A stretch of DNA of 57,507 nt from Aeropyrum sp. Lineage in GTDB: Archaea; Thermoproteota; Thermoprotei_A; Sulfolobales; Acidilobaceae. This document shows positions 34,063-55,213 of this stretch, in pieces. Within the stretch, counting starts at the first letter, position 1, and every line of letters starts with the position of its first letter. The translations under genes and the position numbers were made by a program. Location: contig WAKF01000041.1 of the NCBI GenBank assembly GCA_015523465.1, positions 1-57,507 of the forward strand, given 5' to 3'. The notes below the pieces were generated by a model. The model was not told the DNA's origin and did no database searches. It saw only the letters and a list, made by a program, of their open reading frames with translations.

Positions 34063-34164
34063 ACCTAAGGCTTAATACGCCCTGTAGGGGGCTTTGGATA
34101 GTGAGGAGAAGGTTTTGAGGAACCCAGCTATAACATCACTCTTTAAACTGTCTGGGGGCGTGTT

Positions 34165-34626
34165 ATGTTGCGAAGGCTAGGTTATATAAGTGGTATGGTA
34201 GAAATCTTATTGGCTTCCAGTATACTAATGGTTATGGTCTCTTTTACAGTTCTAGGTGTAGATATGTATCTAATTCCAACTTCTAGCATGGAGCCCATTA
34301 TACCCCGAGGAAGCATAGTAATTGTTGAGCCAGTATCTGGCAATGTAGTCTCAGTGGGAGATGTGGTAGCTGCCTGGGACGAGAAGAAGGGGGTGGTAGT
34401 GGTTCATAGGGTTGTTGAGAAGGACGTTGACAGGAACACTGTAGTGCTTAAAGGTGATGCAGGGCCTGTTGTAGAAGAATATAAGTTAAGCAATGTTAGA
34501 GGTAGGGTTCTCTTCATTATACCGTATATAGGCTTGGTTGTCCTAAATCCTTTGGTAGCCGTTATAGCAGGCTTACTTATTCTCCCTATAATACTACGTG
34601 TAGTGTACGGTTTAATCAGTAGATAG
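34165..34626 (+). CDS. Type I signal peptidase, archaeal ER-type
   Basis: PTSSMEPIIPRGSIVIVEPV, GDVVAAW, VVVHRVVEKD, LKGDAGPVVE (Ser/His/Asp type). Confidence 0.85.
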   Translation: MLRRLGYISGMVEILLASSILMVMVSFTVLGVDMYLIPTSSMEPIIPRGSIVIVEPVSGNVVSVGDVVAAWDEKKGVVVVHRVVEKDVDRNTVVLKGDAGPVVEEYKLSNVRGRVLFIIPYIGLVVLNPLVAVIAGLLILPIILRVVYGLISR

Positions 34627-34642
34627 TAGCGGGTAGGGAGGT

Positions 34643-35995
34643 TTGCCTAAGGCGTTAAACCTGTTTAGTGTCAGGCTATTAATGTTGTTACTAATAATAA
34701 TTGTATTTATAATGCAACTTGACAATGCCTATATAGCCGGGGCTCTGGAGCCTGAGGGAGAGATAGGCTCGATTCATAATTCTAACGATTTTCCAGTGAT
34801 ATTTAAGGTTGGTGGTAGTAGAATTGTTATACCTCCTAATGAAAGCTTTACTGTAGACCGTGAGGTTAAGGCGTGTATCGTGGAGCCCCTAGTATACTAT
34901 ATCTCGGAGGATATAAGACTCGTTTTTGAAGGTTTGATCGTTGATGGTAGACTGATAAACTCTCCGTGCTATATATTCTATACGCCCGTAACTCAGCTTC
35001 AACCCTATTATAGAGTTGAAGTTAGGGTTCTTGTCGTCTCTACCCCGCCTGGTGTGTACTCAGCCGAGTACTGGGGTAGGCAGGGAACGGTTATTGAAGT
35101 CAGGGTCCCTAAGACAATTATATCTGATAACGGCTATGTAAGGCATAATCTCACGCTAATTAAGGTTGGTGAAGTCTCGTTTAACTCTTCTACAGTAAGC
35201 TTGAGTCTAGACTCTCCTAAGGTAGTGACGGCTATATATAATACTGAGTACCTACTAGTAGTGGATGATAAGAAGTACTGGCACAGCGGTTTTCTACTGA
35301 TACCGCTCGAAGATCTTAGAAAGAATGGTAGCGAAGCGGCTATGCTAGTGCCCAGGGCAATCTTACTTCCTTCAGGAACCATAATAGAGCCTAACGAGCA
35401 GGGGTTTTTCATTATAAGTAGCCCTGAAAAGGGGAAAGCGAGGGTTTTCTATACTACGCTTTACAGGGTAGTAGTTGAGAGGCCTAGCGGGGTTGAGGTG
35501 TTTTGGGTTGAAGAGGGTGGTATACTGGAGTTGGACTTTGATAGGGAGATTCAGGTTTCGGATAGGGAGAAGCTGGTTTTGGAGGGTGTTTTAGTTAATG
35601 GGAAGCCTTATGAGGGTATCCCGATCAAGGTTAAGGTCTATTCGCCGCTAACAGTGGAGCCTCAGTATAAGAAGTATTATCTTGTCGAGGTGGAGAGCAT
35701 ATTGGGGAGGAGTACAAGTTGGGTTGAAGAGGGATCCACGTTTCCATTATATTTCCCTCCCGAGATGCCTGCGGGGATATTCACCAAGTTAAAGCTTCGT
35801 AACATACAGGCCGAGGGAGAGCTAGTTAGTTATAGTGGCGGCCTAGGCAGGGTAGTAGTGTCTAGGCCTATGAAAATAACTGCTATATATAGTGTGGAGC
35901 CTGTAGCTTGGAGGATAATACTGGCTACTATACCAATAACGCTCTTATCACTAGCGTCAACCTTCTACATTTATAGGGTGATAAAGAACTTGTAA
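34643..35995 (+). CDS. Secreted, C-terminally membrane-anchored surface protein with degenerate beta repeats
   Basis: N-terminal signal segment, repeated Y-x-V...W-x-E-E-G units, C-terminal TM WRIILATIPITLLSLASTFYIYRVIKNL. Confidence 0.65.
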   Translation: MPKALNLFSVRLLMLLLIIIVFIMQLDNAYIAGALEPEGEIGSIHNSNDFPVIFKVGGSRIVIPPNESFTVDREVKACIVEPLVYYISEDIRLVFEGLIVDGRLINSPCYIFYTPVTQLQPYYRVEVRVLVVSTPPGVYSAEYWGRQGTVIEVRVPKTIISDNGYVRHNLTLIKVGEVSFNSSTVSLSLDSPKVVTAIYNTEYLLVVDDKKYWHSGFLLIPLEDLRKNGSEAAMLVPRAILLPSGTIIEPNEQGFFIISSPEKGKARVFYTTLYRVVVERPSGVEVFWVEEGGILELDFDREIQVSDREKLVLEGVLVNGKPYEGIPIKVKVYSPLTVEPQYKKYYLVEVESILGRSTSWVEEGSTFPLYFPPEMPAGIFTKLKLRNIQAEGELVSYSGGLGRVVVSRPMKITAIYSVEPVAWRIILATIPITLLSLASTFYIYRVIKNL

Positions 35996-36064
35996 TGTAT
36001 AAGAGCTATTCACGATCACCGTAATATAGATATATATTTGGTATTATGCCCTGTAGACTAGCAT

Positions 36065-36080
36065 TAAAGCTTATATGCAA
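36065..36080 (+). promoter_or_regulatory. TATA box region of the small secreted protein gene
   Basis: AGCTTATATGCAATATT about 36-50 nt upstream of ATG 36116; SD GGGAGGGTGT. Confidence 0.45.
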
Positions 36081-36115
36081 TATTTAACACCCAGACTGAT
36101 GTAGAGGGAGGGTGT

Positions 36116-36628
36116 ATGTCAAAAGCTACGGAGCAAAAGGGTAAGAAGAGGAGCAGGAAGCTCGCGTTGCTAGCAATACTAGCAGTATACTTTGTGATAA
36201 TGAATATATCTATAGCATACGCACTCACGGCCGGGTCCATAAATACGGTGAACGTGAACGTTAACGGCGGCACCTCCGCACTGGGAGCTTCGGCCCAGTA
36301 TTATACAGGCTCTGTTTCAACCTCTTTCACGGCTCCGCCAGCCCCAAGCAGCGCTACAGTAGACTTGAACACTCTGGGGTTCTGGCTGGTCACGAGTGTC
36401 GACGTCTCGGTATCCTTTGGAACGGCACCTCCCAACGGCCAAAAATACAATATATACGTCTTCCTAAAGAACTCGGCTAACACCGTAATTGCTAGCACGG
36501 CGGACTATGCTACTATTACTGGAGACGGCACTACAACCACCTTCAACGTGACCAACGTAGCCATACTACCCCCCGTATTCATATGGGATGTAGCATCGGC
36601 GGAAGTATGGATAGTGCCTACACCATAA
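36116..36628 (+). CDS. Small secreted beta-rich protein, candidate filament subunit (TasA/AbpA/cannula-like, unproven)
   Basis: Signal/TM segment LALLAILAVYFVIMNISIAYA followed by about 135 aa Ser/Thr/Val/Asn-rich Cys-free sequence. Confidence 0.55.
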   Translation: MSKATEQKGKKRSRKLALLAILAVYFVIMNISIAYALTAGSINTVNVNVNGGTSALGASAQYYTGSVSTSFTAPPAPSSATVDLNTLGFWLVTSVDVSVSFGTAPPNGQKYNIYVFLKNSANTVIASTADYATITGDGTTTTFNVTNVAILPPVFIWDVASAEVWIVPTP

Positions 36629-36838
36629 CCGTGATATGAAGGGCCCTGGCGCTGCAAAGAAGCACTTAAACTTGAATGCGGGCTTCCTGCTCCCGATACC
36701 ACCCTTTTCTCCACCCTCTACTCTCTCCGGAGGGTTCGTGAGTTTCAGGAATGGTTTGCTGCATTCATAGCACAATAATGGCGGGTATCGCTATATTGGT
36801 ATACTTAGTGATGGGAAAAAGTGTTTAGATGTAAGTTG

Positions 36839-36849
36839 AATATATATTT
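36839..36849 (+). promoter_or_regulatory. Strong TATA box upstream of smORF 36868 / rps15 leader
   Basis: AATATATATTT about 22-26 nt upstream of GTG 36868. Confidence 0.5.
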
Positions 36850-36867
36850 AGTCTTCGATGCCACAGC

Positions 36868-36957
36868 GTGATACTGACTGAGGGTGTCGGCTTCGCTAAC
36901 TTAATAGAACTGGTCTGGAAGAGCTTAAGCAGGATAGTATACGTTTGGAAATCGTAG
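36868..36957 (+). CDS. Putative leaderless 29-aa small ORF
   Basis: GTG start near the expected TSS of the TATA at 36839-36849; MILTEGVGFANLIELVWKSLSRIVYVWKS*. Confidence 0.3.
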   Translation: MILTEGVGFANLIELVWKSLSRIVYVWKS

Positions 36958-37018
36958 CAGGGTAGCCTTTATGGGCTTTGGGCGCGTGCATCTCTAGCAG
37001 GCTATGGGGGGTTGAGGC

Positions 37019-42352: not shown

Positions 42353-42861
42353 GGCTTCTCCATCCTCCTCCTAGCCCTCTTAAGTGTGCCTGAGACGGCT
42401 ATCGGAACTATCATGACCCTAACATTCCCTACAGACCTGAGAGCCCCCATTGCTGCTAGGGCGTGAACCTTAAACTCCCTCCTAACCCTCACCACACCCC
42501 TCATAGTCTTAGGGTTGAAGTCTACTAGGGAGAGGCCCGAAGCTGCTAAAGCCGTCTTGCCGAAAAGCATAGCGAACTCCCTCCTAAGAGCATCCTCCAT
42601 TACCCTAGACTCTAAGGGCCCTTCTGATAGGACCTCGAAAACAATATACCGCCTCTTAGGCCTCGAAGCAGTTTTTCTATAGAGCCTAGCTAGCCTCCTC
42701 TCAGCATAAGCGGTAAGCCCGAGCACGCTAAGAACCCTTTCAACCCTCCTAGCCCTCATATCACCGGCAACATAGCCCGCGATAGCCCCCGCGAGGGTTG
42801 AAGTTGCTAGGAGGGCTACGGCTAGATACAACTCCAATACAGAGCACCCTTTAAAGAGCAA
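42349..42861 (-). CDS. rnp2: Ribonuclease P protein component 2 (Pop5) with N-terminal hydrophobic extension
   Basis: KRRYIVFEVLSEGPLESRVMEDALRREFAMLFGKTALAASGLSLVDFNPKTMRGVVRVRREFKVHALAAMGAL. Confidence 0.75.
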   Translation of the reverse strand: MLFKGCSVLELYLAVALLATSTLAGAIAGYVAGDMRARRVERVLSVLGLTAYAERRLARLYRKTASRPKRRYIVFEVLSEGPLESRVMEDALRREFAMLFGKTALAASGLSLVDFNPKTMRGVVRVRREFKVHALAAMGALRSVGNVRVMIVPIAVSGTLKRARRRMEKP

Positions 42862-43235
42862 GATGGAACTACTAGACGCTTAAACTTATTATTTGCGACG
42901 CCGCATCTACATGATCTAACGGTCTACGGTTCAACTAAGGTTTTAAAGGTCAACGAATCTTATTATAGCTTAAGAGTGGGGCCTCTACGAATCAATAAAT
43001 AATAATATATGATATTACTAATATGAAAATTGCTGTAAGCCTGCTTCTAATCGCGCGATTTTGGTACTAGCCTTAAGCTACCTATAGCCTTAATATCATT
43101 GCTAGAGGCTATCAATGTATAGTTAGAGTAAAGAGGTACTACAGACTCCCCTCACGTTTAAATTATATAATCAACGAGTAGAGCAAAGTATATATAACGT
43201 GATACCTAGACACCATATTTAATCGGGGGCGGCTT

Positions 43236-43568
43236 TTGGATAGAGAGTTAGTACGCTTGCGGATAAAGTATCTGGAAGATATGGCTAAAACCTACGAACT
43301 ATTAATTATGGGCGTGCTTGTGATAATTGCTATTAGTTGGGTGTTACTCGATGGTGCCGATAGGGTTGTATATATTACAATGTTTCTACCGATTCCTCTA
43401 AGCCTTGGAGGTTTTCAAGCCTACAGGCTAAGAAGATACTCGAACAGCCTAAGGGTTAAGTACTTGAAGGAAAAGCCAAGCCCTTCAGCATACCTCCCAC
43501 TCGTGCTCACCTTAATATTATGGATTATAGCTATCCTAGCGGCCCTCTACAAGCTTCTAGGCGGTTAA
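43236..43568 (+). CDS. Small membrane protein, two TM pairs
   Basis: TYELLIMGVLVIIAISWVLL...YLPLVLTLILWIIAILAALY; TTG start, TATA AAGTATATATAACG upstream. Confidence 0.65.
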   Translation: MDRELVRLRIKYLEDMAKTYELLIMGVLVIIAISWVLLDGADRVVYITMFLPIPLSLGGFQAYRLRRYSNSLRVKYLKEKPSPSAYLPLVLTLILWIIAILAALYKLLGG

Positions 43569-51916: not shown

Positions 51917-54900
51917 ATGCGCCATCCTCTAAGGCTCTACGTGGTTGTTGCTGTGATGCTATTAGTCATATCAGCCTCCTCATTACCATACCTTACATCC
52001 AGCCTCCAAACTGTTAGAGGTCTTAAGAATAGCACAGACGAGAGAGATGCTAATAACGTTTTAGTAACTACGGTTAGCGGGTTTAGTTATGCTGATGGCT
52101 ATTTCGTGAAGGTTGAAAGGAACCCCCCAGGGACTATTTGTAGTTTACAGCCGGTACACTTGTATATTGTAGGTGCGAACTCGGCTAATATACAAGTAGA
52201 TTACAGGATTACAGTGGAAACTAATCCTCCAATACCAGGCTTTGAGTCCCCTAGGGTATTAGAAGGTAGTACTTCCTATAGTGCGGCTAAACTAGCAATG
52301 AGTGGAGACATACTAGTTTCTTCTATGCCGGGGCTACCGTCTCTAGATGTAACCTTCACTTGGACATCCCCTATAGGAGAGAAGGTTAATGTTACTCTCA
52401 TAATAAGGTCGCAAGCTACTATTAATGTGTCTGTCGGAGCTGAGATTGTCTATAACGAAACCATAGCATTTGATACTTGTAACGTAGACTTAACAGGCAT
52501 CCCCTTCGCTCTAGCCTTCTCCTTAGACTCTATCACATCGGGAGCGATTACAGAGAACTTAGGCTTATCAACGCCAGGATGGGTGGCTTACGAAGGAGAT
52601 AGTGTTGCCATCTGGGTTTTAGCCCTCGACGATAATGGTCTTGAAGACGTGGTGGTAGAGTATAGTGTGAACGGTGGCGACGCTTCAACTGTTAAGGTGG
52701 AACCAGACCCTATAACCAAGGCTATAAGAGAGATAGTGGATGGTGTTAACGTCTTCTTAGAGAATCTTGAAGGTGAGTTAAGGCAGATAGACCCCTCAGT
52801 AAACTTGCCTAGGGTCTTCCTACCTATCTTTACAGGAGTCGTAGAGATACCACCCGTATCCTCAGGGAGCTACGTTCTCTTTAAGGCAAGAGCTAGAGAC
52901 GTAGACGGCAATACGAGCCTCTCTCCCGAAGGAATTTATTATACTACAATTAAAGGAGGTGTCAAGGTGCTCATAGTAGATCCAAGTCTTAGGCTGTGGC
53001 TCCTCAGGCATAATCTAGAGCTATTCTCTAACTCTTTAAAGGCTTCAGAAGCTATAGGTATGCCTAGCGAAGTTAGAGCTATTCTCGTTGACTTGAAAGG
53101 CCTTGCAAACAGGCTGAGCGAGCTAGCTTTACCCCCGTTCCGTAACTGGCAAGCGATCTCTGGGAGATACGAGATAATGATAGCTATGCCAGAGTCTGAC
53201 TTCAGCTCACTACTAGCCTCAGGGAGCTTCGAGCCAGAGGCTATCATATTGAGCAACCTCTTCCTCGGGGTAGAGGATGTTAACTATCTAGACTGGGATT
53301 TGAGGTATAGTGAAAACCTCGATGATATAATAGGGTATGTGAAGGAGAGGCATGCAGGAATCATAGTCACCCACGGAAGCCTCTCAGACTGGGTTATATG
53401 GACTTCCTGCGACGAGGACAATAGATATCGTGTAGCGCCTAGAGGGCATACTGCTACTAGCGTCTGGGACCTAGACATGATAAACGAAAGGACCCTGGCA
53501 GCGGTGCTGGGGTTACCTGAAATAACGCTGTGGGAGATTATGAGAGATTATGTAGCGGAGGGTCTTTGCTCTGCAAGCTATCCAGAGGCTCAGGCTGCGG
53601 GTCGAGTGATTGGTTCAATACCGTTAGTACTCCCTTACATCCCCTTCAGCGGCAGGTTACAGGCTACTGAGGCTGCGGAGGAGCTGGGCTTCCAGATCCC
53701 TCAGACCATCGAGGTTAAGGTGCCGGGGGCCTTCGAAGATGTTGGTTTTGACGCGTACACTTCAATAGGGTGGCAGCTAGCGCTTCCAAGACTCATAGCT
53801 GGAGAGGCTTTCAAGAAGCTTCCAGAGGCTTGGGATACAGCCTCTCAATTTTACTCTCGGCTAGCCACATTTCTAGCTCAGAACCTAAGTGAGGCTGGCG
53901 TCAGCCAGCAGCTACTAGAAGACACTTTAAGATCAGCTTTTGAAGGAGATATAGCGTTCATGAGAAACCTGCTAACCTCATCCACCATAGAGGGCTCAAG
54001 CTTCTACATGAGCTTCACGCTGGAGGGCTTGGGAGTGGTGGACTTAGAATTTACAGTCCCTAAAGTAGTGTTCAAAAAGTTCCTTCCAAGGCTCCCTGTG
54101 GAGCTTGTAGCAATCAGCGACGACTACCTTGCCGCCATAATAGTCCATGACAAGTATTGGGATCCCTGGGGGTATAGGGCTGTGTACTTCACCTTCGAAC
54201 CTGAAGCTACCGACCCGTCTACCGCCGAGGCATTGCTATCATCAGCCATAGAGTGGGCCCTACAGTGGAAATTTGAAGATATAGTTGAAATGTTAGGCGA
54301 TATCATAGCTCCTAAAGGGGTTGCAGAGGAGTTCAAGAATAAGCTAGTCAGTGTGGAGGGCTATCTAGACGTTGAAGAGTCTACGGTCCTTAACGAAGAA
54401 GGCTTCAACAGGATAGAGCTTAGGGCTCCTAAGGATGCTAAGTTGAACTTGATAATAGCGCATCCTACCACAGAGAGCTTGGACATAGAACTAATTGACG
54501 GTCCTGGGGAAATAGTTAACGTTGAGACTTCCAATAACGTCACCCTGGTTGAGGTGAGGGTTGTTGATGGAAGCGGTAGTATTGTTATAGGGCTGCAAGC
54601 CTCCTCAGATTCAAGCATAAATCCCGTTTATGTAGAGGGCTATACCCGCATTCCGCCTGAGACGGTTACGGTCACGGAGACCACAACAACTACAACGACT
54701 ACAACTGTAACTGAGACTACCACTGAGACTGTAACAACAGTCTCGACTACAACTACTACAGAAACCTTGGTTACTACGACTACCACCACTACAACATATA
54801 CTGTGACAAGTGTAGAGACGACTACTGAAACGGTCACGGAGAGTATCACGATTACAGAGACTATCCCGGGTACCACGACAACAGTCACGGTATCTACTAC

Positions 54901-55213
54901 TGTGACAAAACCCGTAGTAGAGACTAGGACTACAACTGCAACTGTGACTGTTACCGAGAGAGCCGTTGAGACTATAGCTTTCACCGAGACGGCCTTCGTG
55001 ACAGTAACGGAGACTCAGCCCTACACGAGGACAATATTCATAACAGTAACGCCCGATGAAAGGGTGGAGGCTACCATCGTCACCTCTGTAGAGACTCTTA
55101 CGGAGACCGTGACTGTTAGTGAAGGCGTGAGCCTCAGCGGACTTGGGGTGGCGGTGGTTCTAGCTTTAATTATAGGCCTGGTGGGAGGCTACATTTTGAG
55201 GAGACCTGGATAG
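51917..55213 (+). CDS. Large secreted surface protein with Thr-rich stalk and C-terminal TM anchor
   Basis: N-terminal LYVVVAVMLLVISASSLPYL signal segment; TVTETTTTT... stalk; C-terminal VAVVLALIIGLVGGYILRRPG. Confidence 0.8.
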   Translation: MRHPLRLYVVVAVMLLVISASSLPYLTSSLQTVRGLKNSTDERDANNVLVTTVSGFSYADGYFVKVERNPPGTICSLQPVHLYIVGANSANIQVDYRITVETNPPIPGFESPRVLEGSTSYSAAKLAMSGDILVSSMPGLPSLDVTFTWTSPIGEKVNVTLIIRSQATINVSVGAEIVYNETIAFDTCNVDLTGIPFALAFSLDSITSGAITENLGLSTPGWVAYEGDSVAIWVLALDDNGLEDVVVEYSVNGGDASTVKVEPDPITKAIREIVDGVNVFLENLEGELRQIDPSVNLPRVFLPIFTGVVEIPPVSSGSYVLFKARARDVDGNTSLSPEGIYYTTIKGGVKVLIVDPSLRLWLLRHNLELFSNSLKASEAIGMPSEVRAILVDLKGLANRLSELALPPFRNWQAISGRYEIMIAMPESDFSSLLASGSFEPEAIILSNLFLGVEDVNYLDWDLRYSENLDDIIGYVKERHAGIIVTHGSLSDWVIWTSCDEDNRYRVAPRGHTATSVWDLDMINERTLAAVLGLPEITLWEIMRDYVAEGLCSASYPEAQAAGRVIGSIPLVLPYIPFSGRLQATEAAEELGFQIPQTIEVKVPGAFEDVGFDAYTSIGWQLALPRLIAGEAFKKLPEAWDTASQFYSRLATFLAQNLSEAGVSQQLLEDTLRSAFEGDIAFMRNLLTSSTIEGSSFYMSFTLEGLGVVDLEFTVPKVVFKKFLPRLPVELVAISDDYLAAIIVHDKYWDPWGYRAVYFTFEPEATDPSTAEALLSSAIEWALQWKFEDIVEMLGDIIAPKGVAEEFKNKLVSVEGYLDVEESTVLNEEGFNRIELRAPKDAKLNLIIAHPTTESLDIELIDGPGEIVNVETSNNVTLVEVRVVDGSGSIVIGLQASSDSSINPVYVEGYTRIPPETVTVTETTTTTTTTTVTETTTETVTTVSTTTTTETLVTTTTTTTTYTVTSVETTTETVTESITITETIPGTTTTVTVSTTVTKPVVETRTTTATVTVTERAVETIAFTETAFVTVTETQPYTRTIFITVTPDERVEATIVTSVETLTETVTVSEGVSLSGLGVAVVLALIIGLVGGYILRRPG
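54660..55110 (+). repeat. Low-complexity ACN/GTN/GAG repeats coding the Thr/Val/Glu stalk
   Basis: Repeated TVTET/TTTTT units in the 51917 CDS. Confidence 0.85.

Follow-up and report, generated by a model that had tools for sequence, protein, structure and literature searches.

A putative export-and-assembly module for a surface fibre, with its own signal peptidase, in Aeropyrum

Three neighbouring genes on a 57,507-nucleotide contig of Aeropyrum sp. (WAKF01000041.1; this whole stretch of DNA is referred to here as the window) raise the question of whether an archaeal surface fibre can be encoded together with a signal peptidase of its own. The initial annotation had proposed, from the sequence, that a type I signal peptidase, a 450-aa anchored repeat protein and a 170-aa beta-rich exported protein form such a module, by analogy with TasA fibres, bundling pili, threads and cannulae. 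All three co-directional genes were found in place and are designated SP, G2 and SM. The features of the locus are as follows (coordinates in the window, strand, description).

34063..37018, no strand: insertion interval between the ITPase and S15 genes
34165..34626, +: SP, a dedicated 153-aa signal peptidase of type I (TIGR02228, E = 2.7e-16; cassette clade in the peptidase trees)
34643..35995, +: G2, surface protein of 450 aa with a tail anchor and five all-beta modules of ~72 aa (AlphaFold2 model, pLDDT 87)
36066..36078, +: BRE/TATA-like AAAG-CTTATATGC, ~40 nt upstream of the SM start (inspection only)
36116..36628, +: SM, a small exported protein of 170 aa and candidate fibre subunit (its homologues are linked to SP and G2; AlphaFold2 model of mature SM, pLDDT 81)
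36116..36223, +: signal peptide of SM (residues 1-36), with the cut between AYA and LT placed by eye (sequence and alignment)
36224..36343, +: N-terminal extension of mature SM (residues 1-40), a candidate donor strand that contains an alternating TVNVNVN (low pLDDT; N-terminal likeness of paralogues at other loci)
36344..36625, +: seven-strand beta-sandwich core of SM, residues 41-134 of the mature protein (pLDDT 84-96 per block)

The cassette and its genomic site

The assignment of SP as an archaeal type I signal peptidase of the S/H/D type was borne out. SP passed the cut-off of the TIGR02228 model for archaeal signal peptidase I (59.8 bits against 51.85), has transmembrane segments at its N- and C-terminus, and carries by inspection the catalytic motifs Ser41 in PTSSMEP, His81 in VVHRV and Asp98 in KGDA. 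It also matched the SipW model NF046067 (E = 9.6e-9), under that model's cut-off. G2 begins with a TTG start codon 17 nt past the SP stop. SM is devoid of Cys, as had been noted, and the BRE/TATA-like AAAG-CTTATATGC upstream of it, with a ribosome-site-like GAGGGAGGGTG run on its 3' side (also by inspection), suggests that it may be transcribed from a promoter of its own.

The cassette had been described as more AT-rich than its surroundings and richer in TTA and ATA codons. This holds for SP and G2, with third-position GC contents of 0.366 and 0.456 against 0.592 +/- 0.063 in the remaining window genes, but not for SM, which is near ordinary at 0.553; TTA codons are elevated in SP and G2, whereas ATA codons show no rise. 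Elsewhere in the window, a further AT-rich patch lies at 42750-43500 (GC about 0.39-0.41; 110-aa ORF at 43236-43568), and a 1098-aa ORF of low GC content (0.477) at 51917-55213 is without a significant Pfam family.

The genes for Bud32, ITPase and S15 are contiguous in eight relatives, including four of the same genus; here the cassette splits ITPase from S15. The cassette of relative G002 adjoins a phosphoesterase gene and has its G2 split into two frames (L061:8025-9363), and at the phosphoesterase place in relative G004 a split SM fragment alone is left (L062:9033-9538); these two loci represent decay of the cassette within the genus. No cassette was found at the matching phosphoesterase site of the window's own genome. 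Given that the site differs among relatives and that G002 and G004 hold split or reduced copies, the cassette is movable or often lost. A search for flanking direct repeats as marks of insertion returned short, weak ones only. A plasmid-borne or a viral cassette was also considered; both were rejected, as G2 had no match in plasmids and SM none in viral contigs.

Recurrence of the trio and the peptidase lineages

Searches with SM, G2 and SP covered 60 relatives, and profile searches took in 214 genomes of the order and about 398 of the phylum. SP and G2 occur together with one or more SM genes at 16 loci in 14 genomes, namely the window and 15 loci in 13 other genomes (L061, L063, L064, L065, L066, L067, L068, L071; L147; L182, L183, L184, L185, L187, L189), some of them from families outside the order. 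The linkage of SM homologues to signal peptidases thus extends well beyond the window, and the proposed pairing of a dedicated peptidase with a fibre subunit is well supported to the extent that peptidase, anchored repeat protein and beta subunit travel together. The other loci carry one to three SM proteins, in a fuller arrangement SM1-SM2-SM3-SP-G2 with genes often overlapping; variants include a divergent SM in L063 and an opposite-strand G2 in L185. The distribution is patchy: in an even sample of the phylum, SM was matched in 18 of 315 good genomes, weakly so in some. In the distant G2 at L184:6061-7584, the C-terminal end, which is presumably cytoplasmic, weakly matches a zinc ribbon.

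At L064 and L065, from two genomes of one genus, SP and G2 form one open frame of 590-591 aa. The fused frame retains the hydrophobic signal segment of G2, so that self-cleavage into two proteins would be possible, and its existence suggests that G2 may function next to the peptidase.

These observations bear on another reading of the locus, a chance neighbourhood in which two unrelated surface genes were acquired along with a second general signal peptidase. The composition of the cassette, with SP and G2 AT-rich and SM not, would agree with it, as would the differing sites in relatives, but recurrence of homologous trios in 13 other genomes argues that the cassette is not a product of chance. 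The 16 loci, the one-frame SP-G2 proteins and the monophyletic clade formed by the peptidases largely refute this reading, and we give it hardly any credence.

An order-level tree built from 41 SP domains recovered the peptidase clade. The ten cassette peptidases formed one group (support 98/94) and housekeeping peptidases a second (97/95), which included the second copy of the window's genome (G000:C48), while long signal peptidases made up the third, with the exception of one truncated fragment. After addition of seven distant cassette peptidases the three groups stayed (cassette 92/91, housekeeping 100/98, long 79/49), although a few cassette rows lie on long branches and their exact position within the group is unsure. 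Judged by these trees, SP is a dedicated enzyme of a lineage distinct from the housekeeping signal peptidases; it is not the sole general peptidase of its genome, since a separate housekeeping copy is present elsewhere.

The long peptidases have partners of their own. A second cluster type, seen at L070, L076, L077, L078, L080, L153, L154, L155 and L156, combines a ~400-aa signal peptidase bearing a polytopic N-terminal domain with two TasA/camelysin-like exported proteins and, in several cases, a protein with InlB repeats as well as a winged-helix-like regulator. Likewise, the AbpX gene is directly followed by a 380-aa signal peptidase of the long kind, with polytopic N-terminal domain (L148:7565-9591); a G167 gene with such a peptidase directly downstream encodes a product that contains the AbpX stretch letter for letter. 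As TasA/ABP-like pairs adjoin long peptidases and SM adjoins cassette peptidases, two dedicated peptidase lineages accompany two kinds of beta subunit. If SM does build a fibre, then at least two separate lineages of fibres within a single archaeal order would be marked by dedicated signal peptidases.

Predicted structures and N-termini of the exported proteins

Mature SM was modelled with AlphaFold2 from four sequences. It is predicted to be all-beta rather than of a non-beta fold, in keeping with the beta-rich subunit proposed at the outset: residues 41-134 form a seven-strand beta-sandwich with pLDDT values of 84-96 per block of ten residues, whilst the first ~40 mature residues scored 43-67 per block and are, from the model, probably mobile.

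Kinship of SM with AbpA, TasA and CanA, which had been implied by the initial analogy, failed to materialise. SM had no match in Pfam or NCBIfam. A full-length SM profile searched against the PDB touched AbpX at E = 0.031; upon removal of the signal peptides this match fell to E = 0.2, and HHalign gave a probability of 0.4% to TasA/ABP-like proteins. The AbpX match was thereby traced to the signal peptide, and SM was rejected as a TasA/ABP relative on this ground. The profile of mature SM retrieved nothing significant from the PDB, CanA included. In Foldseek searches no match to SM was below 0.001, the best being beta-sandwiches of DUF1425, IrmA and Cj0090 with TM of about 0.4, and TasA, AbpA/AbpX, CanA and thread entries were absent among the 50 best fold matches. 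A search of a viral fold library likewise gave nothing below E = 0.001. Membership of SM in the TasA/ABP, AbpA/AbpX or CanA families is therefore not supported by sequence or fold.

One could nevertheless read SM as a divergent member of the TasA/camelysin/ABP family served by a SipW-like peptidase, in line with the SipW match of SP, the AbpX match of the full-length profile and the signal peptidases that adjoin TasA/ABP-like pairs of the order. Against this stand the loss of the AbpX match, the absence of TasA, AbpA and CanA from those best fold matches and the other peptidase lineage employed by TasA-like clusters, and we deem this reading very improbable.

The N-terminal extension was compared at loci with several SM proteins. 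Over the first 22 mature residues, paralogue pairs were identical at 11/20, 13/21 and 15/22 positions, with 15-26% identity over the rest. In a permutation test over seven loci, N-termini from one locus resembled each other more than they did those of other loci (108 of 5040 permutations were as good), and SM bodies displayed no within-locus matching (3457 of 5040 as good); the N-terminal signal is modest and comes from these seven loci only. The window encodes a single SM, so that the data on N-terminal likeness come from relatives, and its N-terminus is without the GGTG motif found in many of them. Such likeness is as expected if the N-termini served as interchangeable donor strands. Recognition by the peptidase could be another cause, though a stretch of more than 20 residues seems longer than such recognition should require.

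The same data bear on the principal alternative, in which the cassette serves the dedicated secretion of non-polymeric surface or released proteins such as small Ig-like coat proteins, adhesins or bacteriocin-like proteins, processed by SP and displayed or retained at the membrane by G2. The operon evidence applies equally to such a module, which would also accommodate the presence of as many as three divergent SM proteins at a locus, the weak fn3 similarity of SM (beneath the Pfam cut-off) and the InlB-like repeats of G2, as these are common display modules. Plain display, on the other hand, needs no selective, locus-matched likeness of paralogue N-termini. We consider this alternative possible but rather unlikely, and retain polymerisation of SM as the preferred reading.

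G2 was likewise modelled from four sequences (mean pLDDT 87). In agreement with the exported protein with C-terminal transmembrane segment first described, the model comprises a signal helix, five beta modules spaced about 72 residues apart and joined by long connecting strands, and a C-terminal transmembrane helix (422-449), as in a tail-anchored type I membrane protein. Foldseek matched it to linear polyubiquitin and to the InlB B-repeat, the latter with probabilities of 0.8-0.94 and low TM. The window G2 had no match in Pfam, falling under the PF18998 threshold; G2-like proteins of the second cluster type matched PF18998 (InlB B-repeat) with E = 3.7e-17 and 1.5e-12.

Proposed assembly and known fibre systems

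A dedicated export module is strongly supported by the evidence above; that it also assembles what it exports into a surface fibre we hold to be somewhat the more probable case. SM would be secreted by Sec and cleaved by its cognate SP, and cleavage would free a flexible N-terminal strand ahead of the Ig-like beta-sandwich. G2 is envisaged as a membrane-anchored stalk of beta-grasp-like repeats beside the peptidase, a position consistent with the one-frame SP-G2 proteins, where it may nucleate the chain at the cell surface or hold it as it grows. The SM subunits would then join, most likely by each donating its N-terminal strand to the next subunit; from the sequences, we infer that SM polymerises, probably by donor-strand assembly.

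The closest precedents are found in Bacillus. The tapA-sipW-tasA operon of B. subtilis and sipW-calY of B. cereus likewise combine a dedicated archaeal-type signal peptidase, a small exported beta subunit and an accessory surface protein, and TapA and TasA have similar N-termini (PMC9674648), a parallel to the SM paralogues; operon and N-terminal likeness are both documented (PMC9674648, PMC10151520). In contrast to that system, SM has no detectable TasA homology, G2 is a tail-anchored beta-repeat stalk and not TapA, and SP and G2 can share a frame. By analogy, the cassette would work like tapA-sipW-tasA with unrelated families of subunit and anchor.

Among archaeal systems, AbpA of Pyrobaculum and AbpX of Pyrodictium abyssi are also exported beta subunits, and AbpX fibres have been described as donor-strand exchanged (PMC11952670). 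The AbpX gene too adjoins a signal peptidase, but one of the other lineage, and SM does not match AbpX once its signal peptide is removed. Sulfolobus threads (Saci_0406) resemble the proposed SM polymer in their export by Sec and signal peptidase I and in assembling by donor strands into a filament for which no chaperone or usher is known (PMC9715654); unlike for the cassette, no dedicated peptidase is described by the authors in the parts of that paper drawn on here. CanA of the Pyrodictium cannulae is a small exported beta protein from the same archaeal order, has a non-canonical jelly roll and forms tubules (PMC12326000); SM had no match to it. Published cryo-EM of A. pernix has described flagella and CedA1 pili (PMC9905601), which would be compatible with a broken cassette in that species.

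We tentatively suggest, as a possibility just short of evenly balanced, that the cassette represents an undescribed archaeal fibre family, patchy in Thermoproteota, in which Ig-like subunits linked through N-terminal donor strands are served by a private signal peptidase, at times physically joined to an assembly platform of membrane-anchored beta repeats, and which evolved apart from TasA/ABP fibres. If so, the one-frame SP-G2 proteins would point to a coupling of cleavage and assembly at the membrane. The compactness of the three-gene module makes it testable with recombinant proteins, even though the host archaea are hard to manipulate.

G2 invites a comparison of its own, with divergent InlB B-repeat proteins (PF18998), whose fold its model matches; G2 itself differs in being tail-anchored, peptidase-linked and below the Pfam threshold. 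A narrower G2 alignment search returned four loci, one of them a protease-like protein with similar repeats. Repeats of the G2 type are also carried by a thermopsin-domain protein (L072:7919-10534) and a zinc-protease-like protein (L096:5128-7779), and their occurrence on secreted protease-type proteins indicates that such repeats are used generally in building surface proteins and are not specific to fibres.
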